Origin: Rhododendron vialii
Taxonomy: Eukaryota > Streptophyta > Magnoliopsida > Ericales > Ericaceae
Direction of reading: 5' to 3'
Assembly (NCBI RefSeq): GCF_030253575.1
Contig: NC_080560.1
Coordinates: 32,229,501-32,293,500, forward strand
DNA: 64,000 bases
Position numbers and translations under genes: made by a program. Position 1 is the stretch's first letter, and each line of letters opens with the position of its first letter. Positions 1,226-54,879 of the stretch are shown here, one piece after another. The notes beneath the pieces were generated by a model that saw only the letters and a list, made by a program, of their open reading frames with translations, did no database searches and was not told the DNA's origin.

Positions 1226-1534
1226 GGAATCACGTCACCTGCCACAACCACCACGACATACAGTAAATGTTTGGACTTATTGCAGGGGTTTTAGAGGGTT
1301 TACGTTTACCTAATCGGTCGTATTATCCTTTTTTTAAAGTCAATTTGGGGTAAAACTGTAAATCTAATCTAAATCAATCCAAACCGAATGGTTGTGTTAG
1401 GTTTTTCAGCAGTGTGGTTTGGTTTCGATTTAAAAAATTTTTGAAACCGCGTTAAATGGTTTGGTCACGTTAATGGTTTCGGTTCCAAATCGATTTGATC
1501 CATATATAGATATAATATATATACACACACACAC

Positions 1535-1855
1535 AGTCGGGTTCCAGTGAGGGATTCCGCATTTTTTTAAAATGCGAGACTCCCCTTCCCGGTTGAATTT
1601 CGATGATCCGAGCCGCTCAAAGTGATCAGAACGTGATTTTAAGGGTCCTCGCAAGAAATCAACAAAAAAAATGACCGGGAAGGGCTTCATCCGAGCAGTT
1701 TTCATTGAACGGTTCAAAAAAAACTGCTTGGATGAAGCCCTTCCCGGTCATTTTTTTGGCTGATTTCTCGCGGGGACCCTTAAAATCACGTTCTGCACAC
1801 ATTGAACGGTTCGGATTTTCAAAATTTGATCGGAAAATGAAAGTCCCGCATTTAA
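1535..1855 (+). mobile_element. Foldback MITE, copy D of the microsatellite-associated family
   Basis: A long imperfect palindrome: the arm carrying CCGAGCCGCTCAAAGTGATC, then the block AAAATGACCGGGAAGGGCTT, is followed after a short loop by the inverted blocks. It is nearly identical to the reverse complement of the copy at 51681-52024. It begins directly beside a TA/CA microsatellite (about 1505-1534). The distal right terminus is missing or degenerate. It codes for nothing; the open frame across it is a by-product. Confidence 0.8.
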
Positions 1856-17334: not shown

Positions 17335-17963
17335 CAACCTTTTTTCGCAACTGGTGAATATCCAATTGGAACGAAAAAAAGCGCACGAATCTGAATTAGA
17401 AGCGGGAATTATTTTTTTTTTGCCCGAAGATCCGAAAGTGCGAGCACTAACCGCCTCTAAAACGGACTTGAAAGGGTACAGATCTGCATGCAAAGAGACC
17501 GCGAGGATATACGTATCTAAGAAAATATATACAGTTCGAGTGGGGATCGAATTGCAGTAAGGGTTTTGTTTTGTCTTGTTTATTTGGTAACGAACCAAAC
17601 TGAAATAAATGGGTTCCCGGCCAAATTTTGAGAGAGAGAGAGGGAGAGAGAGATGAAGATGGCGAGGAGAATTGGAAGAAGCAAGAAGGTGAATGGATAA
17701 ATAACAATATATTATTATTAGATGGGACCGGAATTGATTAGCAGTTAGAGTAGTAAAACTGGGACCCGTGTGAGAGACGACGTGGCATGAGGAAAAGCGT
17801 GTCGATTTAGAATATCTCGTACAAAGAGCGCACTCTCTCATGTGACGATAGCTGCTCGCATGCTGTCATTTTTTTTTGTTGTGATTTTTTTAATGTTGTT
17901 AAGGGTGAGATTTGGCTTGACTTTTTTCTTGAATTATTTTTTTTCTTTATTCAACAAATTTTA

Positions 17964-18178
17964 CTCTCTTCGTGCCAAAATGTTTATCCGGTCCGCAAAA
18001 CGGAGTGTTAAAAATAATACAATTTTTTAAAGAAAAAATTTAAACTTTTTTCACAAATAAAAAATACTCATTGATATCTAGTAAGTTATTAAAAAACTTT
18101 TGATTTTTTGTTGCAAAAATTGTATTATTTTTAACACTCTGTTTTGCGGACCAGACAAGCATTTCGGGACGGAGGGAG
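17964..18178. mobile_element. Stowaway-type MITE
   Basis: Ends are CTCTCTTCGTGCCAAAATG on the left and CATTTCGGGACGGAGGGAG on the right, flanked by TA on both sides (17962-17963 and 18179-18180), which is the Stowaway target duplication. The arms are inverted for about 80 bp (GTTAAAAATAATACAATTTT and its complement), so the whole 215-bp element can fold into a hairpin. Confidence 0.85.
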
Positions 18179-18490
18179 TACTTTTTTATATTAGTATTTT
18201 TTTTATATTTGTAAGATTATTTGTTTTGTTTGTTTGGACGAGAGGATTGTGAAAAGCAAATTGAGAGTCCCTTTTGGGGATTTCAACTAGACATGCATTG
18301 ATTATAACTATAATATCTATTATTTTCACCATTACCCTTATATTCTATCAATTTTATAACACTTATGTTCACCTGTGAGGGATACTTTTGAAAAATCACC
18401 AAATTTCTCTTTCCATTTTTGGAAAAGGACTATCATTTTGGAACAACCCAAAATGGAATAATAGACTCTCAATTTGTAACGGAGGGATTA

Positions 18491-18728: not shown

Positions 18729-18770
18729 TAAAAGTTTAGAAAAGTTCACTAAAGATAAATAATTCAAAAC

Positions 18771-18773
<3 letters not shown>

Positions 18774-18812
<39 letters not shown>
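18774..18812. repeat. (TA)n microsatellite
   Basis: About 39 bp of uninterrupted TA dinucleotides. No foldback element is attached to this tract. Confidence 0.95.
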
Positions 18813-18814
<2 letters not shown>

Positions 18815-21103
18815 CTTTTGATTATTTTTGTTTTTTTGGGATTTTTATTAATTTTGGTTCATGTTTGGTTCTTTTCTGATTTCTCCTATCGAGGTGAACA
18901 AATAATTCAAGAATATTTAACGAAAATGTAACTCCAACAAAAAATATTAGAATAAAGATAAAAGAATAATCCATTAACAAGTTAGGTCAAATCACCACCA
19001 AGGCGTTCCACTAAACTTTTTTTAAAAGTTATAGTTTTGTCTTTATTTGAATTTTTTTTGCGTTTGTTCGTTTTGCTCCAAAAATTTTTGACTTGTTGAT
19101 TCGTCTTAACGAGACGAATCAGAAAAGTAAAAAAAATTTAATTTTACCCAAATATTTTAAATAATGACTACTTTTAAGTAGAAAAAGTGAAAAAAATTTA
19201 CTTAAAAGTGATTCTTCTTCAAAATATTTTAGTAAAAGTAATTTGGGCAAATTTCACTGACCTCCCATGGGGCTTCTGACACTAGCAGAAACCTTTCCTG
19301 AGGTTTTTGAAATATCACTGTCCTCCCTTACTTTTTCTTACATTACCGAAATACATCCTTCCATTAACTTATCGTTAGGTGTCTTGACAGAAATGAATGA
19401 GTCATACTAATGTCATGTTGTATGACCTTCAAACTGCCAAAAATGCCATTCCCCTTTAGCTTTTCTTTTTTTCTTTTCTTTTCTTTTTTTATCACCCCTT
19501 TAGCCTTTTTTGCTAATATAAAATCCATTGAGTTTCCAACCACAGTGCAATTAAAATTTTTATTTCTCGTATGACAATGCTCATTGTTTTTTCTTATGTT
19601 ATATCATAAAAGGCAAACAAATAAGTTTTCCAATTGCAGATGTGATTTTTTTAATTTAAAAAAACAATTAAAGATAATGACTAAAGTCATTCAAGAAGCA
19701 AAAAATCTTCTGTTATATACTCCAAAAAAATGCATAATTAGAGTTCATTTGAGAAACGAAGTAATTTTTCTCACAAATATCGTAAATGTGTTTTTGGTAA
19801 TTATTCGTTTTTTAAAGAACAACAGCCACAAGAAAAGGCCGAGGGTGTACTTCTAGAATTTGCTAAGGTGGGGAATTTTTAATCTTCATCCTTTGCAATT
19901 CACAGGGAACTGATTGTTGAAGAGTGAAAAACTTCTTGGTAATATGATTGTTCCGGGCCAGTTTGCGCGCACCTCGGACTAATCTCTACATTTCTTCCAC
20001 ATCGGTTTCATACGCATACTCGTGGGGTGAGGTGGCCCCAAAAGTTTTTTTTTTTTTGATAAGTGCCCAAAAAGTTGTTAGACAAGGAAAATTAAACGTA
20101 AAACCTTAGGATGAAACAAACACCTATAAACAATTCAAGTCAAACCTTAAGATGGAGAACACATTTGTCTTAAAAAAATTATTTGATTTAAGCCATCTGG
20201 TAATCGATCTAAATTTTTAAATAGAATACCTACTTGGCAAAACGATTAAAGTGAACTATTCAAGTAAAATACTCAATCTATCCCCATTCTTTAGTTCATT
20301 TTGGAGATTTCAACTAATTAAGGGAACACAATCATTACACTTTTGAAAACTTATTTTTCTCATTTTACTCTTCAGTCATTACACTTTCTTATTTTTGTAG
20401 TACTATTAATTAAAAAATGAAAGGGTAAAAGAGGAAATTCCTTATCTATTACCCATTTAGTTTTGATATGGGACAATCTTTGTCACGCCCTCGATTTTCA
20501 ACATAATTAAATAATACATTTTAATAAAAAGTTTCGTTTATTGTAGATATATTACCCCAAAGAAGTCCCCATCTGTTCAGATTACAAATTAGTCCCCAAG
20601 ATTAAAGTTATAAAACTTAGGCCCTCCAACCCCAAATAGAACTTAAGTATTTGCACGGACTAACTTTTAAGTTACAAACAATTTAGTCAAAAGGAATTTC
20701 TAAAATAAATAGTTACAAACTCATCTTTACCAAAATAAAGTCCATTACAAAAGATGATCAAGTAACTACATGAGGTTGGCTTCCAAAAGTCGCACTTTAA
20801 GCATTCAACATATGCAATCTACCATCCAGCGTTTGAACCTGAAGAGAAAGATTAGGTTGAGCTACACTAGCCCAGTAGAAAAATCTTTACCAATTCTATA
20901 TGTAAACATGATAAAATGTGCAGGTGAAGTGAAGGCAAGAAGTACGACTCAATCGATAGGTAACAATAGATTCAAGTGCATTCCAACGTTCAATGTGATC
21001 GTCCTAACGTATGCCTATAGCTCAATGTACCACCGAGTTCACACAATGTTAAACAACTTAAGTAACCTCGACACAACTCACTATAGCCAATCACCTCTAT
21101 TGG

Positions 21104-21263
21104 TATTTCCACCCCTTGCGTTACCGTATAACACCACGTGGATTACCGTGTTACCACCCCTTGCGTCACGGTGATCCCTAACAATTCGGGTCACCGTATT
21201 ACCACCCCTTGCGTTACGAGACCGTCTAAGTCTTCGTATTACCACCCCTTGCGTTACGAGACT
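21104..21263. repeat. Tandem repeat in the solo LTR (CCACCCCTTGCG units)
   Basis: The core CCACCCCTTGCGTTACG occurs four times, starting at 21109, 21154, 21202 and 21242, at spacings of 45, 48 and 40 bp, with partly conserved sequence between. Confidence 0.85.
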
Positions 21264-21627
21264 TTCTAAATTAACTCCCGACACAAATGATCATTTCCTC
21301 ACTCGACTAACAAGTTATGACTCTCCCAAGACCACAATCCAACACAAAATATGTTACAAAATGCCAACCATATCATAAACATGTCACAAACATTCATAAA
21401 CATTCAACCGATCAATAATACGCGAAATAACAAGTTTTAATTAATTAGTCCCTTATCATTTCATACTAATGGAAGGCCTAAGGATCACGAATAACATCAA
21501 TTAATCATAGGACGTCAATTAGATAAGCAAAAGATAGGCTAGAAGGTATCCAAAAGGGTTTAGAATCGATTGGGGTTGAAATGATCGAAGAAAACACAAC
21601 TAGCATCAAAGCTGTCCAGAACAACAA

Positions 21628-21726
21628 GGGGTATTGATACCCCAAAATCAGGTATCAATACCTGGTCAGCTGGAAATCCAGAGAAGGATGGGGTATCGAT
21701 ACCCCATATTTGGGTATCAATACCCC
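21628..21726. repeat. Cluster of four 16-bp palindromes in the solo LTR
   Basis: GGGGTATTGATACCCC at 21628, CAGGTATCAATACCTG at 21649, the perfect palindrome GGGGTATCGATACCCC at 21690 and TGGGTATCAATACCCC at 21711. Spacings are 21, 41 and 21 bp. The pair looks duplicated with a 62-bp period. Confidence 0.85.
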
Positions 21727-22004
21727 GCTGTTTCGAGGCGATTTTCTACAGTTTTGACAGACATTCAAAGCACCAAAGGGGGACGATCCAAGCACGATTT
21801 CTACACCATTTCAACATATATACACACAACATAGGTAAAGAAGTCCCTACCTCAAGACGATAACAAAAATCTTTGAAATTTGAACAAGCCCTAGCTTTCT
21901 CGAGCTCCTAATCTTCGATTCAAGCTTCAAAACACGATCGGAAGGTCGGAGGGTGGTCAATCCTTGAAGGTTTTGCAAGATTGAGTGAGGTTTTAAGTGA
22001 AAGG

Positions 22005-22007
<3 letters not shown>

Positions 22008-22060
<53 letters not shown>
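22008..22060. repeat. (GA)n microsatellite in the solo LTR
   Basis: About 53 bp of GA dinucleotides. Confidence 0.95.
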
Positions 22061-22061
<1 letters not shown>

Positions 22062-22429
22062 GGTGGAGAGAGGGAGGGACGGCAGAGAGATGAGGAATGG
22101 AAATAAAATGATCTCCTACTTCTCACACACCTCTATTTATACCCATATATCTTTTATTCACACTTACACTCCCTCCACTCTCTATTCTTTCGCTTTAGTT
22201 CTCAATTCGAATAATCACCCAACAAACCACATTTTCCAATTTCCCCTTTGATAAATATTTCAAGAATAAAAAAAAATACGGGTCCCTACAATCTTTTTGG
22301 GATGAAAGAAAGTGTTAATTGAAACTAAAGAAAGGGGACGGAGGGAGTAATCAAATGTTAAGTGCACAACCCATACTTTGTATTGAGCACATCACAGACA
22401 TTATTCTTCTGTATTAACGTTGTTCTAAG

Positions 22430-22730
22430 GCCAGTTTTTTGTCTTTATTCGATTTTTTTCACATTTGTTAGTTTTGCATCAAACTTTTTTGGATTATTAG
22501 TTCGTCTCGACAAAAAGAATAAGAAAAACAGAAAATTATGACTTTTACCCGTTTAGGGTAAAAGTGCTAAAAGTTTAAATATTGTTTGTTTCTAACATAC
22601 ATTGGGTACAAGTCATAATTTTTACTTTTTTAATTTCTCTCGTCGAGACGAACCAATAATCTACACAAATTTGATTCAAAACTAACAAATGTAATAAAAA
22701 TTTGAATAAAAAAAAAACCTAAGCTTTTTT
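22430..22730. mobile_element. Foldback MITE of the GTCTTTATTC family
   Basis: The left arm (GTCTTTATTCGATTTTTTTC, TTCGTCTCGAC, AAAATTATGACTTTTACC) is repeated inverted at the right arm (GTCATAATTTTTACTTTTTT, GTCGAGACGAACCAATAAT). The same arms occur as a second full foldback at 29440-29765 and as half copies near 2440, 18840, 19035, 23230, 27330 and 27490. Confidence 0.75.
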
Positions 22731-23689
22731 TTCGGAAATTAGGCCTAAGTTAATCCAACATTAGCAGCTTTATTCTTTTTCTAGTTATTAGTAGCTTTAA
22801 ATTGCCGATTACAGCGTAAGAATTTGATGTGCTTTAGCAAATTTTTTCCATTAGTTATCTTTAGAAGAACCAGACCCACCACGAGAAAAAAGAAAAGCAC
22901 AAGTAAAAGCCAAAAGGTATAATTACCAGTAGTTTTTGCGGCCGAGGCATGATGCACATTGGTATAATGGTATTAGCCTATTAGGATTCTTGCTGGGTAG
23001 TGGGTTCACACAACAGAGAGATGGATAAGGTTATAGTTGTCATTTTTTCACCAAGCTAGCACCGTTTGTGAACAAATTAACAGAAGGGGGAGTCTTGGTA
23101 ATATCAGAAAAAGCAAGGGAGGGCAGTGATATTTCAGAAATCTCAGGGAAGGTTTTTGATTGTGTCAGAAACCTCAGGGGAGGTCAGTGAAATTTGCCCA
23201 AGTAAATTTTTTTTACTTTTTTGTTTCACGAATAAAAAAGTCAAAAAAAATTGGCTCGAAACGAACAAACGCGAAAAAAATTCAAATAAAGACAAAATCA
23301 AAAAAGTGAAAATCAAAATTTTTTTTTTTTTACTACTCATATGATCATATTTGACAATTTAAGATGATCATTCTTTTGACCTTGTTGTGAAAATCATTTA
23401 TTCTAGTTTTGATTGAACATTCATGAATACTTCTTCTTTTTTTTGCTAAGCAACATTCATGAATACTTAATTGAATCATATCTAATTTAGTAGCAATTGA
23501 CAATGGAAAACCCTTAATTTAATTATGAAATCCAATAATTTGAAGTCTTCATCTTTTAACCTTTGGAGTCCTCAAAATTGATTCTGCCTATATAACAAAT
23601 TTATTTTTGGAGTCATTCTTCAAAATTACTAAGTTTGGGTATATTTCTCTCTTGAAGTTTCTCACAAATGCAAAAACTCCCCTGAGGTT

Positions 23690-24130
23690 CAAAAAATCAT
23701 ACTAACCTCCCCTGCTTTACATAATATTGTATAGATTACCCCCTCCTATTAGTTCCGTTTTATTTCCTTGACTGAAAATGCTGATGTGGTACGTTATTTT
23801 CTCTCATATACTACCAAGTATGGCCTTCATTAACACTCCCTCCCATCCCAGACCCACCCCACACAGTCACAAGTAGGTACGAACCTACACACCACACCCT
23901 TTTAATCTTGGATTCGTCGTAAGGTTAGGATCAAGCGCTTTAAACTATATCTTCCTTATATATAGAGGAAGAGTGCATCTGAATAGTTTTTCACCTTTTT
24001 GGTCCACCAAATGAAGACTAGTTTGGTATGGCGTTAAAACAGTGTCCTGGTTACAAATGAATTGTTTTAATTGTCATCGTCTCTTGCGAAAGTTCTAGGT
24101 TGTCCTTGCATATTCCAAGTTGTGTGTTAT
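23690..24130. other. Intergenic, repeat-like, no gene
   Basis: The section 23690-23790 (CCCCTGAGGTTC, CTAACCTCCCCTGC) resembles the terminal motif of the 19.0-23.3 kb element. No coding potential was seen. Confidence 0.4.
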
Positions 24131-24240
24131 ATTGAGGCATGAGGCGTGAATTTTCTAAGTTTTGGTGGGCAGAAATACTGGAGTATTGGACTGGAGGACT
24201 CTGTTTTCCCTTTGGTACGAAAGAGGGTGCCGCCCAGGAA

Positions 24241-24985
24241 AACGGCGTAGTTTTCTTTGCTTTGAAAGGTTCCCTTTTGTGCTTGCCTAATCTCCGTTTG
24301 GCACAACAAATTAGACTAATGATTTATTGATTTTTGTGTGGTCATTTCGGATCCCATAAAGATGATTCAAATTACTCGTTATTCTTTAAAAAAAAAATTT
24401 ATGGGTTCCTACAAAAAATTAGCTCCATCCGATATCGGTAAGGACTTTTTCAAAATTTGTAGGGTGCGTAACACATTCTGAAAAAACCCTTACCGATACC
24501 GAATGAAACTAATTTTTTACAAGGACCTATAAGAAAATATTTTAAGAATAATGAGCGGTTTAATCATTTTTGCAGGACCGAAATGGGCTCACAAAAAAAA
24601 ATCAAAAAATCATTAATTTGAAATTTAGTATTTTGGTCTACGAATACTGAAAAAACCTTATCGATATCGGTCTGAACTAATTTTTTGCAAAAATACATGA
24701 AAAAATATTTTAAAAATAATGAGCGATTTAAATCATTCTGTGATACCTGAAATGACCTCACATAATGAATAAATCATGGGCCCGGCTAAATACAACTGCA
24801 AATTTACTACATGCAGTTAATTCATGAAAGGGAATCCCAAAATTTCCTTTTATGAATTGGCTACATGTAGTAAATTCGCAGTTGTATTTAGCAGCACCCT
24901 AAATCATTAGTCTGATTCACTGTGCTTAATGAGGATGAAGCAAGCACAAAGGGGGACCTCCCAAAGCAAAGAAAACTATGTCGTT
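24241..24985. mobile_element. TIR element with internal hairpins, about 745 bp
   Basis: The left end (CGTAGTTTTCTTTGCTTTG, later GACTAATGATTTA) recurs inverted at the right end (24902-24985), giving imperfect TIRs of about 85 bp. Inside, GATATCGGTAAGG with its flanks is repeated inverted and then direct (24430, 24490, 24660), and a separate hairpin lies at 24783-24890 (ACTACATGCAG / CTACATGTAGT arms). No transposase. Target-site duplication not resolved. Confidence 0.65.
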
Positions 24986-25681
24986 TATCTAGTACAAATC
25001 CCTCCCCCCCACCCCGCTCTTGTTTTTTTTTTATTTATTCGTTAAACCTAATCTACTTTCAGAAGGGGAATGGGTGCTGACGAGAATCAAATCCTACCAT
25101 GTGCATGAGAGTATAAAGGAGGCACCAACTGCACTCACTCCACTTGCTCTCTCTCTTATTTACCCATTCGAAGAATTATAATACTGCGGGAAAAAAACTG
25201 AATCACTTTCATATTTTTGTTACTTTTCAGTATTCAATGCTCCAAATCTCAAATTGTCCATATCTCTATGAGTTCCGCATAGTAACAATTTTAAACCATT
25301 TCTATTGTAATGCTACAAAAAATTCATAAAGATGCTAATGATGATTTTTTTACTTTCTTAATTTTATTTGAATCTTAGTGCTTCATTTATTTTCTTTCAT
25401 TCAGAAATTTCCATTCTATAAAACATTAAACTTTAATTTTGTCATTTTTTTTTTGGGTAATTATATTTGTCATTTGACCACATTGATGCATATGTTGTTA
25501 TTCAAATTAGAAATACGTTGGGTATCAGCACGAGAACAATAGAACAGTTCAATCAATAATTTTTATATTAACACCTGCTATTTTCCATTTATTTCTTACC
25601 AGCTTGTTTGACAACCAAAATTTTGCATAGTTTAACCACTACAACAGTTCAAACAAAATATTGAGCAGGTTGGATTGTAAC

Positions 25682-26340
25682 TGTGACGCCCCGAATTTCG
25701 GAACATTAATAAAGGATTTAAAAGACAATTTTCCCAAAAGAAATTCATAGATTTATTTTGTCATCGTTCCAAAAGCATGTCACCATATTACAACCATATC
25801 GAATTTAATTTAAGTTTTTGAATTTGACAAAATATTACAAATCCCAATAAACCATGAAGTTCTCAAAATAAAGTCGATTTAAATTAGTCAGAGCAACCAA
25901 GCGTACGATAACCAAGGCTCCTTGACTTCGTCCACAGCAGGGTTGAACTCAGTCGGATGGTACGGCTCTTCCATTTCGTATTTAGTACCTGGCGTTTGAA
26001 GACCAGGGCAATGTAGTACTGTGAGCAATTGATGCTCAATAGCTAAAACCTACCTGAAACCCATAACTTACGAATAACAAGATAAAATGCAATGCAATTG
26101 ATAACGCTTGATTTTTGTTACTATTCTTCAACTTATGTATCATCTAGGATCACTACCTTGAGATTTGTCATACCCTTAACCACTAAGTTATGACTATGGC
26201 ATCATTCAACTCCCTCTTTGTGCCCGGATGAAAGACCCTAAGTAATCAACTTAATAAAATTCATCACGGTAAATTCCACTCTTTACTCTAACACAAGGAG
26301 AACGACGCAAATTTCACCCATTCTACACCACCACTTGTGT
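25682..26340. mobile_element. LTR-like fragment (TGTGACGCCCCG start)
   Basis: The segment begins TGTGACGCCCCGAATTTCGG, a start typical of long Ty3/gypsy-type LTRs and similar to the solo LTR at 20481. A matching CA end and a target duplication were not found, so it is probably truncated near 26340. Confidence 0.45.
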
Positions 26341-26928
26341 TTCAATCCCGTTTCTCAAAAGTTAATCATAGTCATGCCATACTCAGGGTGGGTAGAAGTA
26401 TTAGATTTGACGGTTTTCTTAAGGGTTTAGGTATAGATCGGAGTTTGGATCAGGGGGTTTGTGGCTTGTGGTGTGGAGGAGGTAGCGGTGGTGGTGGTGG
26501 TGGATGTGATAATGACAATGTCAGTGTGTGTTGTGAGGGTGTGGTGGGATTTTAGGGTTATCCAGCTCTAAATGGGCTTGGGGAAGCAGTCCCTTTCCTT
26601 TTCCTTTACCTATTGAATTGTGGTTGGGCTTTGTTTTGATTGGCACCAATACTGGTGGGCTTGATTCATTCTGCATTTCACCTAGTGATTAAATAAATAA
26701 AAGCGAGACCCATTCTGGGTTGTAGTGGGCTTGACTGGAGCATTCCTGTTTGGGCTTCGATTATTGTTTCCCTGGCTTTTGTTTTGGGTTCTTTGCTTGT
26801 TGGTCGGTCCATTTGGTTGGGGTTTTGATGGGCCAGCTCAATTGGGATCAGCTCGGTCGTTATGATGATACTCAAGGTATTTAGGGAAAATGAATCTCCA
26901 CCCTTCATTCTACAATGATATTTTGGAA
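26341..26928. other. Unclassified repeat-like sequence
   Basis: A G-rich stretch with short Gly-rich frames (26460-26530, GGTGGTGGTGG) and TGGGCTT motifs. I see no protein domain. It may be part of a degraded retroelement. Confidence 0.3.
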
Positions 26929-28097
26929 GGGTTTTGTTAATGTGTGCCCCCAAGGCACATGACAAAGCACTTGATAATGTTCATTAAATAAGGTCAATTA
27001 AATTTCACTATTGTAAAAAGTAGTGAAAGTAGTTGCAATATATTGGATGAAGAGTAAAATTTGTTTAGGAGACCAAAATACCCCTTAATTTTTTCCACTA
27101 CTCCATTTCATTTGTGTTCCCTCCTTTTTTATTTTGCCCTTTCATCTTCTTGTCTTTTGGCGTCCAAGTAGTAACATTTTTCCTACAAGTACTACTGTAC
27201 TAGTCATACACAGTGACGCCATAGCCCATTAGCAGCAAGTAAAGAGAAACAACGTGGCTAATGAAGAGTGGGTTTGGATTAATAAGTAGGCAGCGACTTT
27301 CTTTCCTTTTTTTTTCTCTTTTCAATATTTTTTTTTGTATTTGTTAGTTTTGTGTCGAACTTTTGTGACTTATTGATTCGTCTTGACGAAAGAAGCCAAA
27401 AAAGCAAAAAAAATTTAAATCGAAACTCATGTCTTTTTTGAAAAAGACAAAAAAGAAAAGTCAAAAAGCTCTCTTTTTTTTTGTTGTTGTCTTTTTTCAA
27501 TTTTTTTTTGTATTTGTTAGTTTTGTGTCGAACTTTTGTGACTTATTGATTCGTCATGACCAGAGGAGCCGAAAAAGTACAATTTTTTTTATTGAAACTC
27601 GTTTATTTTTTTTTTGAGAAAGACAAAAAAAAAAAAAAAAAAGAGTCAAAAAGCTCTCTTTTTAATTTTGGCATATAAACAAATTAACCTCATTACAATA
27701 AAATGATAGCTACAAGTCAGTAAACAAAAATTGTACAACTTAGTTTGCTGAACATTTAAATGAATGGATAAATATATGTACTTTAAAACAGACAAATGAA
27801 AAAGAGAGGAGTTGGAATATCCCTCACCTGCTGAAGAATGCTACGTTCGAAAGACAAATTAATGTTAAGCCAAAATGCCAAAAGACAAGAAGATGAAAGG
27901 GCAAAATAAAAAGAAGGGAACACAAATGAAATGCAGTGGAGGAAAAAATTAAGGAGTATTTTAGTCACCAAAATAAATTTTACTCTTCATCCAATGTTTC
28001 AACTACTTTCTACAATAGTGGGATTTAATTGATCTCATTTAATGAATCTTATCAAATGCTTTATCATGTGCCTTAGGGGCACACATTAACAAAACCC
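26929..28097. mobile_element. TIR element of about 1.17 kb with an internal tandem duplication
   Basis: The left end GGGTTTTGTTAATGTGTG and about 240 bp inward recur inverted at 27880-28097. Between the arms, a unit of about 190 bp is duplicated in tandem (27300-27480 and 27481-27665; shared TTGTATTTGTTAGTTTTGTG and GTCAAAAAGCTCTCTTTTT). No transposase; target duplication unclear. Confidence 0.7.
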
Positions 28098-28299
28098 AGA
28101 AATACATCTTCCTGTTTTGGTTCAAAATTTGACGCTCTATCTCAACCGTTGAATTTGATGGCTAAGATTACAACTTTACTTAAACTCTCCCATTGAATTT
28201 GATGGCTAAGATTACAACTTTACTTAAACTCTCTCTGTTCCCCATCTCTCCCTCTCTCTCTTTATTTTAAATATTAGTAAAATGTTTATGACTTTTATT

Positions 28300-28797
28300 T
28301 TTACATATTAATCTTTTTATAAATTTTCTATTTTTTAAATCTATTCGAAGAGATTTATCAAGTGAGATCCATATTTGATATAAAATTATGTAAAAATACG
28401 ATTATTGTTTTTAATTCAATCCGCAAATTATTCTTAAAATATTTTTTTATGGGTTCTTGAAAGTTCCTGAAAAAAATTAGCTTAATCTGTTATCAGTAAG
28501 AGCTATTTCAGAATTGGTTGGGGAGGGGTTTACACTCTTTGAGAATAAGTTGCTGTTAGAAATCATTTGGATGGTGTTTTTTGTTTATCAAAGTTTTATG
28601 TGTTTGAATTTGTGCATGAAAAACTTAGGGATTGAAAATTTGTTTGCCATTTACTGGCTGATTCAATTTAAACATGTCTATTAATATGTTTTGGTTATTG
28701 TTTTCCGCAAAGTTGAATTCATTGGGCAAGGGTTGATATATTGGGTTTAATGTCCAATATTTATTTGCGTGTGCTGATCGTTCGAGCCGTGTCTTCA
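28300..28797. repeat. Dispersed repeat, copy 1 (other copy 34640-35137)
   Basis: The two stretches share long similarity including GGTGTTTTTTGTTT, TTTGTGCATG and TGATATATTGGGTT, ending with TGTCCA.TATTTATTTG and CGAGCCGTG. Same orientation, about 6.3 kb apart. Confidence 0.7.
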
Positions 28798-28998
28798 GGC
28801 ACTACAAGAAATCAGCATACACCAACGAGTCAACAACTGTCCAATATTTCTTTGCGTGTGCTGATCGTTCGAGTTGTGTCTTCAGGCACTACAAAAAAAT
28901 CAATATACACCAACGGCTATCTAGTATTTATTTGCATGTGCTGATCGTTCGAACTGTGTCTTCAGGTACTATATGAAAATCAGTATACACCAATGGCC
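28752..28998. repeat. Tandem repeat, about 85 bp x 3
   Basis: Each unit holds TTTGCGTGTGCTGATCGTTC, GTGTCTTCAGG and ATACACCAACG. The first two units contain CACTACAAGAAA or CACTACAAAAAA, which resembles a CACTA transposon terminus. Confidence 0.85.
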
Positions 28999-29079
28999 AA
29001 AAGTGCTGGCAAAGCTGCAAAGGTACCACGAAGTGTTGGGATAGACCCGTGTGACCTGTAGACCTATGCCAGTGCTTTT

Positions 29080-29420
29080 TGGCCGCTTGTATAGACGTGT
29101 TCATATGGAAAAAAATCAACTTCTTGCCTCTCACGAGTTTTGAACCCATGCACCGGAACCAAGTCACACTTTCTCGCGCAACCAATTGACCAACCGCACC
29201 ACAAATATTTTTTGATATATGATTGAAATATTTACCCTATAACATATATATTTAAAATTAAAATTAGCAATTAAAGTTGAATTGAACGTCATTTTGAACC
29301 TTTAAACATTAAAATTAGCAATTTTGATAAACATTAAAGTTGTAACCCTTTATATTATTGTTCAAATTCAATTTGAATTATCTTAATCAAAATTATGAGA
29401 GTTATAGGTTGTTTGGTCAA
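29080..29420. repeat. CACTA-associated repeat, copy 1 (other copy 30740-31030)
   Basis: Both copies hold a 'caution word' block ending in accgcaccac or actgcaccacac, then TTGAAATAT, ACCTTTAAACATTAAAA and AAAGTTGTAACC, in the same order. Confidence 0.6.
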
Positions 29421-29439
29421 AATAAGTCAGTACTTGGCT

Positions 29440-29765
29440 TATTTTTTGCAATTATTCAATTTTTTTCTCATTTGTTAGTTTTGGGTTAATTTTTTGTAAA
29501 TTATTGATTCATCTCGACGAGAGAAATCGAAAAAGTAAAAAATTATGATCAAAGCTTATAATTTTTTAAATAAGTACAAAAATAAGCAAAAAAAAATCTG
29601 TCTTTTTTGGATTATTTTTTGTCTCTATTCAAAAAAAAATTGAGTTTGGATCATAATTTTTTACTTTTATGATTTCTCTTGTCAAAATGAATTAATAATT
29701 CATAAAAATTTGATGCAAAACTACCAAATGCAAAAGAAATTTGAATAATGACAAATAAAATAAGC
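29440..29765. mobile_element. Foldback MITE of the GTCTTTATTC family, second full copy
   Basis: The left arm (CATTTGTTAGTTTTGGG, CATCTCGACGAGAGAAATCG, AAAAATTATGATC) is matched inverted on the right (GATCATAATTTTTTACTTTT, GATTTCTCTTGTC). AT-rich, about 325 bp. Confidence 0.75.
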
Positions 29766-30334
29766 CTATAAATTTGAATAACGGTTCAGATCAATCGTTA
29801 TAATAATAGACTTGCCAATGACCTTCAGAATCTATACGTTCATCCTACTGAGCAACTAACTTAGGCTCCATTCCGGAACAAAAAATAAGTCCTTATTTTT
29901 TAAGAAGGCAATTTCAAGCTCAAAAATTATGGGCTTATTGAAATCTAAAAATATGCAATATGAATCTTGTTTGGAATATCTCAATGAGATCTTTTATACG
30001 ATGCAAAAAAAATTAAAAAAATATTTTTCATTTACTTTATTTTTGAATTTAAAAATGTGAAATAAGCTGCTTATTTTTTAAGAAGGTTTCTGGAACGGGG
30101 CCTTAGTCTTGTTTTGTAGTTGAACGTATGGTAGCCTCACAACCAGGACACAATCATGACGATCAAGGCCGTTGATTTCATTGTGCTTGTTGATCAAATC
30201 ATTTATGTAAAATTTTAGCTCTATCCGGTTTAGAAAGTTCCACTTGATAATGAACTAAGTCTTGTGTTGTAATTGAATGTACAATAGCCACACTAGTGCA
30301 ACACAATCATGACGATCGAGACCGTTGATTTTGT

Positions 30335-34639: not shown

Positions 34640-35137
34640 ATCTACATGTTTGGACAAAATCATCTATAAAATAAGGAAGGGAAGTTTTATATTAAATATG
34701 GACCTACCAAACGAGATCCATATTTAATATAAAATTATGAAAAAATACAATTATAGTTTTTAATTCAAACAGCAAGTTGTTCATAAAATATTTTTTTGTG
34801 GGTTTCTAAAAAAAAAATTAGCTCAATCTGATATTGGTAAGGGCAGTTTCAGAAATCGCGTGAGAGAGAGTCGTGGTACACTCTTCAACAATAACTTGCG
34901 GTTTGAAATCAGTTGCATGGTGTTTTTTGTTTTATTAAAGTTTTATGCATTTGAGTTTGTGCATGCAAAAGTTAGGGATTGAAAAATAATTTATTCTTTA
35001 TTTGCTGATTTAAGTTAAACATGTCAATTAATATGCTTGAGTTATTGTTTTTCACAAAATTAAATTCATTGGGCAGGGATTGATATATTGGGTTCAATGT
35101 CCAGTATTTATTTGTTCGTGCTGATCATTCGAGCCGT
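34640..35137. repeat. Dispersed repeat, copy 2 (other copy 28300-28797)
   Basis: See the copy at 28300-28797; here it ends before the tandem array and lies 315 bp from the 3' end of the GDSL gene. Confidence 0.7.
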
Positions 35138-35452
35138 GCCGAACATGCACTAGTTAATGGACAGGTATAGCTTCTAATCTAAGCCGGTATAATTTGGGAC
35201 AACAGACCATTCATCAAACAAATTCTTGATGACATGCACGACATAACGATTACATTTTTTTTAATGCACTAGTATATTACAAAAGAAATTGTATTCAATT
35301 CGATGTAAAGTGAAAAAAACAACTACGTAAAACCATCCATTAAATTTGATCATTATTCTTTGATAAAGATATTACATTTAGGCCAAGTTAAAAAATCACA
35401 TATATATTACTTTTTACTTTCTCAATTATTGGGAAACTGGAATAAGACCAAC

Positions 35453-45378: not shown

Positions 45379-45406
45379 AAATCAGAGCCTCCAGTAAAGC
45401 GGGGGG

Positions 45407-45532
45407 CTGTCTTTTAAACTGGTAAACCTGATTGGGGTTCAACTAATATCTGAGTTCTAATTCACAAAGGTCAGGATTTGAATGCCTATCGCCGCACACA
45501 TTTCCTTTGTATTCCAGTCCGTAGGTAAGCCT
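45407..45532 (-). pseudogene. Choline transporter-like gene fragment, left arm
   Basis: On the minus strand the frame reads RLTYGLEYKGNVCGDRHSNP, then LELRY followed by a stop where the right arm and the CTL family have Trp, then LNPNQVY. The fragment ends where the inverted duplication ends. Confidence 0.85.
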
Positions 45533-47732
45533 AATGATTCACATGACAACTTATCATCACAATCACAAAGAAATTAAACAAGAAAATGAAGTCATGCATG
45601 ATGCAAGCACCAAAATGGGAACAAATAGAATGAATCAACATGCACTCAAAAAAACAAGCCTATTGCATAGATTCGCTCAAGTTACACTTCTTTATGCCAA
45701 TGTTGAGAATTGACAACAGTAAGTTCATGAATCCATTTTTCTGTATCTATCTTTAAAATGACCTATCAAGGAAGAATGACTGAGTAAGAAGAGGAGGTGT
45801 TATCAAGGACGCACCATAAGTTACAAGTCTGACAGTTTAAGGCTATATAAGATGCATTTTTGGAATGCACCTAAGATTAAAGTAACAGGCAACTATTACC
45901 CCAAATAATCCTTAGAAGAGCACAACACTACATTTCAATACTATTAACTTATGATAGCTTCTTCGATCTTAGATAGAAGAAAGCTCCAGCAATCCACCTA
46001 AACTTGATAATTTCGGAAGCTTAATATACTGTATACGCCATAACCAGAAGCTCTAACAATGCTAAATTCTACATCTTTATAACTAATAGCCTTAAATAGG
46101 AGTCTATAACAGTGCTTAACATATTCATATGCCCAAAACATGGGGGATGTAGGAAAAAATTCTTCACTCAAAAATTAAGCAAAAAGAATCGGTTCAATTA
46201 AATTAATTTCACAAGCCCTAAATTTTTTTGGTTTGAACAAGTTACAGTTAAATTAAAGGCTAGAATCGACTAAAATTGTAGGGGTCTAACAACCAGAGAG
46301 AGAATGAGACCTTGGTGGTCGGTAATGGCGCTGGTGGTGGCGTCGTTGCTGGGCCCAAGAGATTTTCGCTACTGCTAATGGTCACCGAAGGTGGTAACCG
46401 CGTCGTATTCGTTCGTTCTTTCCCTCCTCCAAATCTAGGGAAACAAAAATTTTCAGCGATTTTGTATTTTTTGGCAGCTGCTGGGCCCACCCACCATGTC
46501 GAGAACCGTAGATTTATTGTAAGCCAAACCCAATACTCCTTCCCCCATCGAGGCTCTAGCCGTCTATATAAACCTCTTCTTTCCCTCTTTTATCTGTCAT
46601 GTAGACAGCAAATTTCTTCAGGTTCTCCTGTGTACCGCACTACCACTCGTTTGTGTCATCAGCATACTCCCCTTCAGCGGCTGTGTACATCTGGCGAATT
46701 CATTGGCGCTACCGACGACTTTTGAGTTCACGGCGACGTCGCCGACAGCAAAGTTCTCGCATGAATCGCCGCTGCGGAGTTTTCGCATGAGTTGGAGAAG
46801 GCCTTGGTGTTTGACATTCCAGAGCTACCGAACTAGATCCACTGGTGTGCTATAATTCCACCTCTGAAAATCTCATGCGGCGACATGCGCTCCTACTCTA
46901 TGCTGACATTTTGAAGGTGAAACATAGGGCATCACGGAAGGCCTTTTCAAAGTCGCCAACGAACAAGCAGCCGGGGCGGCCGTTCCATCCCGGATCTTCG
47001 CCGTCTTCTGAATCTCTGCCGTTGTCTGAGAGGAGTCGAGGGAGATTCAGATGACGGCAGAGATTCAGAAGACAACAGAGATCCGAGATGGAACAGCCGC
47101 GACGGCTGCTTGTTCGTCGGCGGCTTCGGAAAGGCCTTCTGTGCCATGTTGCCCTATGTTTCACCTTTAAAATGTCAGCATAGAGTAGGAGCGCACGTCG
47201 CCGCAGTGAGATTTTCAGAGGTGGAATTGTAGCACACCAGCGGATCTGGTTCGGTAGCCTCCGAAATGTCAAAACACCAAGGCCTTCTCCAACTCATGCG
47301 AGAACTCCGCAACCGGCAATTCATGCCAGAACTCTGCCACCGGCTCCGGTGATGCCGCAGTGAACTCAAAAGTCGTCAATAGCGTCAATGGATTCGCCGG
47401 ATGTACACAGCCGCTAAAGTGGAGTATGCTGATGACACAAACGAGTGGTAGTGCGGCACACGGAGAACCTCAAGAAATTTGTAGTCTACGCAACAGAAAA
47501 AAAAAAGGGATAGAAGAGGTTTATATAGACTGCTCGAGCCTCGATGGGAAGGGGGAAGAAGTATTGGGTTTGGCTTACAATAAGTCTACGGTTCCCGACC
47601 CTATTTCCCGACTTGGCTCCTGATGCTGACATGGCGGGTGGGCCCTACGTCAGCAGCTACCAAAAAAAAAATATACAAAATCGTTGAAAATTTTTGTTTC
47701 CCCAGATCTAGAGGAAGGAACGGAGAGAGAGA

Positions 47733-47940
47733 AAGAGGAGGAATATGACGGGGTTACCACCGGCAACCCCCATCACCTGCGACTCCCACAAGCCTCACCC
47801 TCCACCTCCGGCGACCACCACCAACAGCGAAAATCTCCCCGGCCCAGCAACGACGCCAACACCGGCGCCATTACCAACCACCAAGGTCTCCCTCTCTGTG
47901 GGTTGTCGGACCCCTACAATTTCAGTCGATTCTAGCCTTC
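47733..47940 (+). other. Pro/Thr-rich open segment in the right arm (first exon of the chimera?)
   Basis: The frame beginning ATG 47745 (MTGLPPATPITCDSHKPHPP) is Pro- and Thr-rich, does not resemble a CTL N-terminus, and has a diverged counterpart in the left arm (46300-46460, minus strand). It may be the leader or first exon of the duplicated gene, or unrelated captured sequence. Confidence 0.35.
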
Positions 47941-48572
47941 AATTTAACTGTAACTTGTTCAAACCAAAAAAAATTAGGGCTTGTGAAATTAATTTAATTG
48001 AACCGGTACTTTTTGCTTAATTTTTGAGTGAAGAATTTTCTCCTACATCCCCATGTTTTTGGGATATGAATGCGTTCAGCACTATTATACTCCTGTTTAA
48101 GGCTATTAGTTATAAAGATGCAGAATTTAGCATTGTCAGAGCTTCTAGTTATGGCGTATACAGTATACTAAGCTTCCAAAATTATCAAGTTTAGATAGAT
48201 TGCTGGAGTTTTCTGCTATCTAAGATCCAACAAGTTAACATAAGTTAATGGTATTGAAATGTAGTGTTGTGCTCTTCCAAGGATTATTTGGGGTAATAGT
48301 TACCGGTTACTTTAATCTTAGGTGCATTCCAAAAATGCATCTTATATAGCCTTATACTGTCAGACTTGTAACTTATGGCACGTCCTTGATAACACCTCCT
48401 CTTCTTACTCAGTCATTCTTCCTCAATGGTCAATTTAAAGATAGATACAGAAAAAGGGATTCATGAACTAACTGTTGTCATTCTTCCCATTTTGCTGCTT
48501 GCATCATGCATGACTTCATTTTCTTGTTTAATTTCTTAGGGATTGTGATGATAAGTTGTCACGTGAATCATT

Positions 48573-48894
48573 AGGCTTACATACGGACTCGACTACAAAG
48601 GAAATGCATGCGGCGATAGGCATGCAAATCCTGACCTTCGTGAATTAGAACTCAGATATTGGTTGAACCCCAATCAGGTTTACCAGAGTGGTTTAAAAGA
48701 CAGCCAATTCGAGCTTGATAATGCTCGGAGTATCTGTTTAATGGATTGCCCAACCCATCAGAAGATTCACTCACTTGGGTGTGTGATTATCCACAGGGAG
48801 ATATTCATCTCTCAGTTGATGACTGGATTGATAGGAATTATGATATTCATCTCTCAGTTATACTTCCAAGCGGGAATGGTAAGTTGTTTGGAGT
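48573..48894 (+). pseudogene. Choline transporter-like (CTL/CHER1 family) gene fragment, right arm
   Basis: The frame reads RLTYGLDYKGNACGDRHANP, LELRYWLNPNQVYQSG and ARSICLMDCP, strongly like the first extracellular loop of plant CTL/SLC44 proteins such as CHER1. One base is missing after MDCP, so the continuation (SEDSLTWVCDYPQGDIHLS, VDDWIDRNYD) is in another frame. About 20 bases (ATATTCATCTCTCAGTT) are then repeated and the family sequence stops near a GTAAG donor at 48880. The membrane core of about 600 residues is missing. It cannot code for a transporter. Confidence 0.88.
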
Positions 48895-50300: not shown

Positions 50301-50795
50301 CGAATATGTCTGTGAGCTAGAGATCGATAGGCACCCATGCACCGTCAAGGAACTTGATGAGTGAAGCTGAGAAGTAGCGCGCTTTTATGGAACCGAAGAA
50401 GAATATAAAGCAAAGGGCTATGAATACATTTCTGCGCCAGCAAAAGACAATAACCAGAGACATTAGGCGGGTAATTACCAGCATAACAGTTATAACCGCC
50501 AAACCTGCTCCATGAAAGAAGCACCTGTAATAAGTTTACCAAAATCATTGGTAAAAAATAAGACCAGTTACTAACCAAATAAATGGGTGTCTACGATGGT
50601 TAGACTGGGTACATACCTAACCTTGGCACTAAATGCACAAAGTGGTTGTCCTTAGACTCGATCCTACAACCTAGAGGAGGTTCATAGGGTGGGACTTTGA
50701 AAACTGAAGCACCAATCACCACCTAAGAAGCACGGATACGGATACGTGATTTTTCCGAAAAGTAGGATACAATACGTTTGGGATACGTTGAATAT

Positions 50796-50798
<3 letters not shown>

Positions 50799-50830
<32 letters not shown>
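50799..50830. repeat. (TA)16 microsatellite
   Basis: It abuts the left end of foldback copy A. Confidence 0.95.
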
Positions 50831-50834
<4 letters not shown>

Positions 50835-51172
50835 GGGGCGGTTCCAGGGACACTCAAAAAAACACCTAAAAAAACAACTCATAGTTCCCGATCAAAATTT
50901 GATGATCTGAGCCGCTCAATGTGATTAGAACGTGATTTTAAGGGTACCCGCGAGAAATTAGCAAAAAAAATGACCGGGAAGGGCTTGATCCGAACAGTTT
51001 TTTATTGAACAGTTCAAATCAAGCCTTTCCCGGTCATTTTTTTGGCTAATTTCTAGCGGGCACCTTAAAATCACATTCTGCAGACATTTAACGGTTCGGA
51101 TCATAAAAATTTGATCGGGAACTATGAGATTGAGATTTGGGGTGCTTTTTTGGGTGTCCCTTGAACCGCCCC
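50835..51172. mobile_element. Foldback MITE, copy A
   Basis: Ends GGGGCGGTTCC on the left and TTGAACCGCCCC on the right. The arms contain GATCTGAGCCGCTCAATGTG and AAAATGACCGGGAAGGGCTT and their complements. 338 bp. (TA)n lies directly on both sides. Confidence 0.9.
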
Positions 51173-51227
51173 AATATATACATATATATGTATATATATA
51201 TACATATATATGTATATATTGGGGCGG

Positions 51228-51261
<34 letters not shown>
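51173..51261. repeat. TA/ATACATAT microsatellite between foldback copies A and B
   Basis: Includes repeats of ATATATGTATATAT that form hairpins, and pure (TA)n at 51230-51259. Confidence 0.93.
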
Positions 51262-51263
<2 letters not shown>

Positions 51264-51611
51264 GGCGGTTCCGGAGACACTTAAAAAAAACCCCCAAGTT
51301 CCCGATCGAATTTTGATGACCCGAGCCGCTCAATGTAATCAGAACGTGATTTTAAGAGTGCCCGTGAGAAATCAGCAAAAAAAATGACCATGAAGGGCTT
51401 CATCCGAACAGTTTTTTATTGAACTTTATTGAACGGTTCAATAAAAAACTGCTCAAATCAAGCCCTTCCCAATTAGTTTTTTTGTCAGTTTCTCGCGGGC
51501 ACCCTTAAAATCACGTTCTGAACACATTGAGCGGCTCGGAACATCAAAATTTGATCGGGAACTATGAGATTAAGATTTGGAGGGTTTTTTTAAGTGTCTC
51601 CGGAACCGCCC

Positions 51612-51612
<1 letters not shown>
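51262..51612. mobile_element. Foldback MITE, copy B
   Basis: Ends GGGGCGGTTCCGGAGACAC and GTGTCTCCGGAACCGCCCC, exact complements over 19 bp. Same internal blocks as copy A. 351 bp, with (TA)n on both sides. A stray GGGGCGGTT at 51221-51229 in the TA tract between A and B may be a remnant of another copy. Confidence 0.92.

Positions 51613-51613
<1 letters not shown>

Positions 51614-51678
<65 letters not shown>
51614..51678. repeat. (TA)n microsatellite between foldback copies B and C
   Basis: About 65 bp of TA. Confidence 0.95.
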
Positions 51679-51680
<2 letters not shown>

Positions 51681-51686
<6 letters not shown>

Positions 51687-52024
51687 GTAAGGGATCCCTC
51701 ATTTTGTTAAAATGAGGGACTTTCATTTCCCGATCAAATTTTGAAAATCCGAACCGTTCAATGTGTGCAGAACGTAATTTTAAAGGGCCCCGCAAGAAAT
51801 TAGCAAAAAAAATGATTGGGAAGGGCGTCATCCGAGCAGTTTTTTTTGAACCGTTCAATGAAAACTGCTCGGATGAAGCCCTTTCCGGTCATTTTTTTTG
51901 CTGATTTCTCACGGGGACCCTTAAAATCACGTTCTGATCACTTTGAGCTGCTCGGATCATCGAAATTCAATCGGGAAGGAGAGTCCCTCATTTTATTAAA
52001 ATGAGGGATCCCTCACCGGAACCT
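51681..52024. mobile_element. Foldback MITE, copy C
   Basis: Ends GGGATCCCTCATTTTGTTAA on the left and TTAAAATGAGGGATCCCTC on the right with CCGGAACC outside. Flanked by (TA)n on the left and (CT)n then (TA)n on the right. Reverse complement of copy D at 1535-1855 with few differences. Its termini differ from copies A and B, so at least two subfamilies exist. Confidence 0.9.
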
Positions 52025-52134
<110 letters not shown>

Positions 52135-54879
52135 TCATTCCTAAAATTCCATTAATGATTAAAGAAATGACAGACGAGAGAGAGAGAGAGACAAGAGACG
52201 AGATATATACAGTATATATATACATAGTAAAACAACGAGAGAGAGAAAAGAGAGAAAAGAGAGATGACAGACATAAGAAATAACAAATTTACCCCGTGCA
52301 TATCCGAAATGTATCCAAGAGTATCCGAAACGTATCAGGATACCAAAAATTAATTCCAAAATCTGGATACTCTAGAAAATGTATCCGATATGTATCCGGA
52401 GTGTATCCGAGTGTATCGATATCTGATGCGCGTACGGTACATGATACAAAGGCCAAAATAGAGTATCCGTGCTTCATAGATCACCACTTACAACAATCAT
52501 AATTATATATACGGGTAAGTCATAATACAAATAGAAGAAAAGCTATTCTGATCATTTGATTCCACCATTTCGAGGTGCTTGTCATTAAAATATAGGGGAC
52601 TGAAGAGTTTCATTTCATCAATAAGTAGCATAAAATTTAGTCCTTTATAGGGACTTACCATGCACGATAGAACTAGTACGTTGTAGTCCCTCAGTCAAGA
52701 AATACAGATTCCTTCCAAACTAAAGAATTTGAAAAAGAGAACACAAGAGAGGGAAGGGAAGAACAATTGAGCAATGCCTTCTTATTTGCAAAAAAAAGGA
52801 AACCATTTCAGAGAAAGTACCTGCTGCATTGCTTATGTGTTTCATGTTTCTGAAACCAATAGTAACAGCCAAACATAACACCATTGAAGTCCAGTTGATC
52901 TCCGAAATGTAGATCGGCCATGGATACTGGGCGAGGTGTGTACTATTTTGACCCTTGGGAAGCAACCCAAAGCAGAACACTGTCGGATAATGGAGAAAGT
53001 CCCGGTGATGATGGATTGGCTTCCACAACTGCTGCGAGTATGGCTAATGCTAGAACAGGCCATTGTATTAGCTTGGACAAAGCAAGTAGGTAATGAAAAT
53101 CAGCTAAAACTCAACTTAAAGGCTCTTGGATTAGTTATCGCCTACAAATACCAACACAAATTATCATGAGAAAAATCTAGAAACGGCTAGTAGAAAGAGC
53201 AAAAACATAGTACCTACCAGGTACTGATACATAGAATCCAATGTGGTAATCACTTTCAATAATATGGTGCTTGGAAAGATAAGCTGCTTGCGCCATATAC
53301 GCAAGGATCAAGGCTGGGTAAACTACAAAGGTGAAACCGTGAAAGCAACCTTCAATTAAGTAAGCTCTCCGTGAGGAGTTGATTTCACTGATGCAGTTAG
53401 CAAGAAATGCTTCTTTAGCAAATGATTATATCAACGAAATGTTAAGGACAGCAGGAGAAATAATGTAGTCTTCAGTGTATTAACAACTCTCTCCTGAATT
53501 AGCACTATTTGTTTCAGATTTGATGCGTTTGTCCTTGAAGTGCTTGAACTTCTAGCACTGTTTAATTACCAGATTAGGTGTTGAGATTGGGAGTACATTC
53601 TGGCAGGCCCCACATCATCCTCATTTGCATGCAACTTTAACTCTTGATTGTCGGTTGCCTGCTTGACAACACAACCCACAAAACCTTGCCATATTCTATT
53701 CCTGGGCAGGAGCGGTTTGCCAGATGGGAGACTATTTGATTAAGGGACTACGTGTAAAGCATGATTACAAAGTAGTGGTCGAAGAAAATTCCTACACCAC
53801 CCTCAGTATTAGTCTATTAGATATTCTAAATCCTTGAGGGATTGGTAACCCAATGGATGTGAGATCCCTTGTGAACTGTTGGATTCAGCGCAGGGGATAA
53901 ATTTTACACCCAAATAAGTGGCTGACCTTCAAACATGGACGACAACAATAAAGAAACTACTGCAAACACTTTTGATCGGTAAATTTTATGAGCACACAAG
54001 ATTCTCAATTCTAGTCTCAGTGATTGCATTGACTGAAAACAGAAACTACATGCCGTATCTGGAAAAAATAAGCATACTTTTATCCGAAAAGTTCAACGAC
54101 TGTATTTAGAAAACACAAAAATCACTTTGACTGAAACTCTATGGGCGCCTACTTTATGTTTGATCCACAATTTCATCCCACAAAAGAGGCATATCAACTG
54201 CAGTACTTGACAGGAAACATAACCAAGTTTATTTACCTTGATAGACAACTGTGAAAAGTGTCCAAGATTAGCAAACATCGCTTCTGAACCTGAATTAGAA
54301 TTAAAAACAAAAAAAATAAGAACACTTTGTCTATTGGGCAAGAGGACACAGTTTCACTTTGCTCTTTTACCTGTTATACAAAACAAAATGCCACCCAAGG
54401 ACATCCAACCTCCCCTTTGGGTCTTCTTCAAAAACTTGTACATGTAGTAAGGAGAGAGTGCTTTGTAAACATGGGGATTCCAGTAGGGCTTATGCATACA
54501 AGCCATGCTATCACAATCGAAGCAAAAAGGAATCCTAATTGATGGGTCCCATAATATTGGAGCGCAAACAAGAATACCAATATGATACAAGCAACTGGGA
54601 CTTCTACATCTGCAAAATAAAGGAACAATGGAAACAGAACATCAAATTTGCAATCTATTATCTATAAAATGATAGGATTATAGTGACCGGCCAGTGGATC
54701 TTACTTCCACCCAAGGTCTCATTACTCAGTGAAAAAGATGCAAAGACTGTAAAAATTTAGAAGTGTGGAAGCATTATTGACATAAAAAAAATAAAAAAAA
54801 ACGTCGGAGCCTTAAGGATTTAAAAACTTTAAAACATATGACCTTACACAAAACAGGAAAAAGTCAATTTCCCAACCTT

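Follow-up and report, generated by a model that had tools for sequence, protein, structure and literature searches.

Foldback elements bordered by microsatellites in Rhododendron vialii: a probable family of microsatellite-targeting Mutator-like MITEs

Four imperfect palindromes with common tips are found in a 64-kb stretch of Rhododendron vialii DNA (the window, 37.5% GC), where they contact microsatellites at two loci. Three of them, A, B and C, form a non-nested array, in which C is no local duplicate of its neighbours; the fourth, D, lies apart. We consider it highly probable that these copies belong to a family of microsatellite-targeting, non-autonomous Mutator-like MITEs that inserts in short (TA)n tracts, which later expand. 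To all appearance, this is one more family of an already known type of element and not a new phenomenon. The positions of the copies, of the tracts that border them and of associated structures are collected in Table 1.

Table 1. Copies of the foldback element, bordering tracts and associated structures, in positions of the window.
Feature	Position	Strand	Description
Imperfect TA tract, then (CA)6	1502–1535	.	borders D on the left
Copy D	1536–1853	+	foldback element, subfamily 2; right tip missing (about 29 bp relative to C)
Left copy of possible 11-bp direct repeat ATCACCACCTA	50715–50725	+	flank of the enclosing unit; aligned by eye
Possible older inverted-repeat element	50727–52475	.	GAAGCACGGATAC inverted at both ends, GGATAC-rich interior
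(TA)16 tract	50799–50830	.	borders A on the left; GCAC between tract and A
Copy A	50835–51172	+	complete foldback element, 338 bp, tips GGGGCGGTTC
Perfect 66-bp palindrome	51164–51229	.	from the right tip of A to the stray tip
A–B spacer	51173–51261	.	imperfect palindromic TA filler followed by the stray tip and (TA)16
Stray element tip GGGGCGGTT, 9 nt	51221–51229	+	one of three plus-strand places with this 9-mer
Copy B	51262–51612	+	complete foldback element, 351 bp; outer 28 bp identical at both tips
B–C spacer	51613–51680	.	(TA)32
Copy C	51681–52024	-	foldback element, 344 bp, subfamily 2; left tip eroded but present; orientation opposite to D
(CT)16, then (TA)34	52027–52129	.	borders C on the right
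Right copy of possible 11-bp direct repeat ATCACCACTTA	52480–52490		aligned by eye

Copies A, B and C are imperfect palindromes of 338–351 bp and occupy exactly the positions given in the original prediction, which had been made from the sequence alone. That all four copies are foldback palindromes is borne out by folding them as single-stranded DNA, where each forms a strong hairpin relative to shuffled sequences: B reaches −145 kcal/mol (z −28), A −127 kcal/mol (z −25; folded as 50836–51173, one base off), C −124 kcal/mol (z −19) and D −115 kcal/mol (z −18; folded as 1536–1855). No open reading frame of at least 180 aa is present at the four copies, and the longest stop-to-stop stretch that touches one of them comprises 108 codons. 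Short, non-coding and composed of long inverted repeats, the copies have the build of microsatellite-targeting MITEs of the SaTar, mt-MITE or MuTAnT type.

The tips tie the copies together. GGTTCC, followed by A or G and then by G, forms the left tip of A, both tips of B, the right tip of C and the left tip of D; exact matches to GGTTCCNGNGA number five in the window, all of them at these tips. The right tip of A and the left tip of C are altered, to GGTTCAAG and TTTTCAAG, respectively. The proposal that the termini differ between two subfamilies is largely wrong, in that a GGTTCC-type tip is common to all copies; it holds for an outermost GGGGC, which A and B possess but C and D lack; in the latter two, GGGATCCCTC is subterminal and not terminal. 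The subfamilies do differ in the approximately 40 bp behind the tip, where A and B have a GACAC / A-rich stretch, C a small nested palindrome (TCCCTCATTTTnTTAAAATGAGGGA) and D a diverged version of that palindrome. The block AAAATGACCGGGAAGGGCTT, thought to be shared by all, is exact in A and D and altered in B and C. Judged by sequence, then, A, B, C and D are one family with shared GGTTCC-type tips.

Is the proximity of these elements to microsatellites more than coincidence? We scored an end as being in contact when it lay no more than 15 nt from a perfect dinucleotide run of at least six units, and counted seven of the eight ends as complete (the right end of D is lost; the left end of C is eroded but was counted). 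Six of the seven have such a run within 5 nt, while the seventh, the right end of A, is 19 nt from a perfect run and abuts the imperfect TA tract at 51174–51260. The nearest run is TA at both ends of B and at the left ends of A and C, CT at the right end of C and CA at the left end of D; beyond the CT and the CA there lies a TA tract in either case, so that the one complete end of D adjoins CA directly and not TA. As a background, 0.8% of window positions fall within 15 nt of such a run when the copies' own tracts are excluded. Control ends in contact were 0 of 26 for 13 other palindromes in the window and 0 of 14 for seven spaced inverted repeats, the nearest being 21 and 23 nt from a run, both of them ends of a hairpin centred on a TA tract.

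A Fisher test against 11 of the 13 control palindromes gives p = 1.5e-5 when ends are compared, although ends are not independent, and p = 0.013 when loci are compared (2/2 versus 0/11). Because ends share spacers, the figure by locus is the fair one. The set of 11 omits 18751–18833, a hairpin built around a TA tract, and 34685–34734, which measures 50 bp; both are included in the count of 0/26. Some of the control palindromes are related to one another. The close spaced pair 52030–52092 / 52203–52264 was left out of the controls, as it is the microsatellite beside C itself, and inverted matches between distant places were not used, as they are not single elements. Background and in-window controls together rule out a chance association with microsatellites, for two independent loci only. 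Microsatellite-bordered ends, as expected of a microsatellite-targeting MITE (SaTar, mt-MITE or MuTAnT type), are thus found at two independent loci. The original prediction that every complete end touches a tract is upheld at perfect runs for six of seven ends and at an imperfect TA tract for the right end of A; D contributes one bordered end and not two. Its link between the foldback family and (TA)n is likewise right, but that the family is confined to such sites is more than four copies at two loci can tell.

How did three copies come to lie side by side? Both spacers, A–B and B–C, are of the TA type, as had been proposed, and A, B and C are not interrupted by one another; such a non-nested array, joined by microsatellites, is a trait of microsatellite-targeting MITEs. 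Three adjacent copies with similar spacers could also be the product of local tandem or segmental duplication of a single TA-bordered element. The degrees of identity speak against it: the pairs A–B, A–C and B–C are about 77–83% identical in either orientation, whereas C and D, about 50 kb apart and in inverted orientation, are 91.4% identical over 314 bp, and the subterminal module of C is unlike that of A and B. With its closest relative in the distant, inverted D and not among its neighbours, C, for one, was inserted separately. When core arms are compared, no pair is more alike than C_R/D_L (93.3%), followed by C_L/D_R (90.4%), and the two arms of any single element, at 78.8–85.4% identity, fall below both. 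Since these between-copy pairs exceed the arms within an element, the two arms had already diverged from each other before the C/D subfamily spread. A duplication could still fit for A and B, which have tips and module in common, but it is made unlikely by an identity of about 77–78% over their full length and 82–88% in the core arms. Spread by local duplication, which the original prediction had named as evidence against itself, is therefore contradicted for C, whereas for A and B it is no more than unlikely; that it gave rise to the array as a whole we consider extremely improbable.

Which came first, the tract or the element? The original prediction left it undecided whether the element inserts in (TA)n or carries (TA)n at its ends, a question that publications have largely settled for elements built in the same way, whose empty sites are reported to be (TA)n already (PMC4486113, PMC5907723). 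The empty sites of MuTAnT in Medicago truncatula are (TA)n with nine repeats on average (PMC4486113), and of 51 rSaTar2 sites on rice chromosome 1, 20 are described as unoccupied TA tracts in the other subspecies (PMC5907723). An element that carried or created its own (TA)n, by tip filler or slippage, with no tract before insertion, would be in keeping with the position of the perfect TA runs of at least six units in the window, five of six being at the array, and with the 9-nt tip found on both sides of the TA run at 51221–51270, as if TA had been added at the tip; expansion of the tract after insertion is, moreover, reported in the literature (PMC5907723, citing maize). Against this stand the published empty sites, which already hold (TA)n, and the neighbouring tracts, whose differing type (TA, CT, CA) is ill-suited to one carried sequence. 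The window also holds a TA tract at 18774–18812 without such an element, hence tracts exist without the element. We regard a self-made tract as unlikely.

Insertion into a tract that was already there is thus the reading we prefer. Each copy is a non-coding imperfect palindrome whose conserved tips would be recognised by a MULE transposase, presumably supplied in trans. It would insert into a pre-existing short (TA)n tract, sometimes beside a resident copy and without interrupting it, and separate insertions at one locus would give rise to an array. To go by published relatives, the flanking tract would expand after insertion, and the CT or CA tracts next to a tip may arise by slippage. A preference for such targets would presumably extend across the genome.

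Could the family derive from a superfamily other than Mutator and still target microsatellites? A TSD of 9–11 bp, as left by Mutator elements, is unreadable here, as simple repeat surrounds every complete end and D has lost its right end. No Pfam match to a transposase was obtained in the 13 ORFs scanned, out of the 65 open stretches in the window that reach 90 codons, and spliced genes would escape such a scan. MuTAnT, SaTar and Ac-mMITE, which are of the same build, are, however, assigned to Mutator (PMC4486113, PMC5907723, PMC8449440), and MuTAnT too has GGGG tips, similar to those of A and B (PMC4486113). We therefore hold a foldback element of non-Mutator origin to be distinctly unlikely, and keep to a Mutator-like family in what follows.

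Of known systems, the original prediction had considered only Micron, whose build is less similar than that of MuTAnT, SaTar and Ac-mMITE. MuTAnT is a 292-bp foldback element with two subfamilies; 90% of its copies measure 200–300 bp, and perfect (TA)n holds all but 14 of 218 copies (PMC4486113). Its GGGG tips range from zero to four G, a variable distal G run that is paralleled by GGGG in A and B and none in C and D (PMC4486113). A known autonomous member and 9-nt TSDs, seen outside microsatellites, are features of MuTAnT (PMC4486113). Its tip mask, however, is GGGGTTTGCTAGAACA, compared with GGGGCGGTTCC here, and by eye little agrees beyond GGGG (PMC4486113), which places the present copies outside the MuTAnT family proper. 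Multi-copy arrays do not appear in the available sections of the MuTAnT description (PMC4486113).

SaTar elements of guayule, rice, sorghum and citrus are likewise short elements with TIRs and have TA or other microsatellites at their borders, some families having TIRs of 120–180 bp in elements of 380–440 bp, and their flanks are sometimes inconsistent with a TSD (PMC5907723). In guayule and rice they form non-nested arrays joined by microsatellites; unlike the three copies of one family seen here, these arrays are mainly of mixed families, with single-type clusters mentioned for rice (PMC5907723). For guayule clusters, deletions that fuse elements have been reported and circular intermediates with filler proposed (PMC5907723). 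The likeness to SaTar is one of description (PMC5907723). The same applies to Ac-mMITE-1 and Ac-mMITE-2, mt-MITEs of pineapple, whose lengths differ (510–570 and 210–270 bp) but whose two families have the distal TIR in common, and whose clusters were ascribed to adjacent insertion through (TA)n and judged not to be tandem duplications (PMC8449440). GA/TC tracts lie beside some of these elements, mostly with TA on one side, and were attributed to slippage; the order of element, CT or CA tract and TA tract at the right end of C and the left end of D recalls them (PMC8449440). Two further elements are similar by description: Micron of rice, a short element in (TA)n since reassigned as rSaTar2, a non-autonomous MULE (PMC4486113, PMC5907723); and TAFT of maize, which is TA-bordered and whose empty sites are short TA tracts that lengthen once the element is in place (PMC4486113, PMC5907723). 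FaSt of Prunus, also considered, is a Mutator element of 349 bp with 82-bp TIRs, a 9-bp TSD and AT-rich targets (PMC12071656).

Database searches yielded no relatives. Rfam returned no match at gathering thresholds, copy C had no match among plasmids, and one family motif was not found in bacterial and archaeal genomes. Exact family motifs gave no match in one search of the viral collection and 14 loci in another; the latter are taken as chance, the 12 best BLAST rows being 17–36 nt with a best E of 0.003. Six family motifs were also sought in the full text of papers, and 16 papers contain one or more of them; in the 12 of these that were listed, only the 11-base tip motif (either strand) is present, and their titles are unrelated; published family sequences are mostly in supplements, outside this search.

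The window contains other repeats and open frames. A near-continuous palindrome of 3.3 kb at 45405–48705 (self-inverted match 45706–48484, 82%; outer arms 45405–45624 / 48481–48705, 92% identity) is possibly a large foldback element; its ends are not at microsatellites, and its three internal ORFs (46282–46722, 46901–47293 and 47258–47620) have no Pfam match. An AT-rich inverted-repeat family extends over 19034–29766, with palindromes at 22437–22717 and 29436–29766 that are related to 19034–19151, 23200–23297 and 27307–27670. The ends of a 219-bp palindrome at 17962–18180, TACTCTCTTCGTGCC and GGACGGAGGGAGTA, resemble what we take to be the tip of a Stowaway MITE. A direct repeat of about 440 bp (28356–28791 and 34705–35138) is 80% identical between its copies. 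A minus-strand ORF of 478 aa at 15593–17029 runs over about seven tandem 114-bp (38-aa) repeats and has no Pfam match. One open frame has a Pfam Transferase domain (PF02458), presumably that of the plant BAHD acyltransferase family, and another has an FHA domain (Pfam); by these the window has the look of plant nuclear DNA.

The array itself may be enclosed by an older element. GAAGCACGGATAC occurs exactly only at 50727–50739 and, inverted, at 52463–52475, and 12 of the 23 occurrences of GGATAC/GTATCC in the window lie between 50734 and 52463. The inverted tips of this enclosing unit score 29, compared with a maximum of 26 in 500 shuffles, while a second, inner alignment of its arms scores 26 only. 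For the flanking ATCACCACCTA/ATCACCACTTA pair, an 8-mer match as close was found in 56 of 20,000 random position pairs. On this modest evidence, 50727–52475 may be an older element that contained the TA site.

What requires explanation in the A–B spacer is a stray tip without a body. The perfect palindrome at 51164–51229 consists of the right tip of A, 48 nt of palindromic TA-like filler and the stray opposite tip GGGGCGGTT; the same 9-mer returns at the start of B (51262), across the (TA)16 run, as a direct repeat. A right tip being the reverse complement of a left tip, any two elements placed next to each other will show this arrangement. On simple readings, the stray tip could be what is left of a fourth element after most of it was deleted, or could stem from the duplication of a tip in the course of insertion or repair. 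By analogy with the circular intermediates proposed for SaTar, the spacer might instead be the fossil of a non-standard insertion, in which a tip-to-tip junction with filler recombined into a TA tract, which we think very unlikely.

Taken as a microsatellite-targeting, Mutator-like family, these elements appear to add one more to the transposons that use microsatellites as landing sites, and they accord with the literature, in which such behaviour is seen as widespread among plants. The A–B spacer, with its stray tip, offers a concrete place to ask how elements and tracts become joined.
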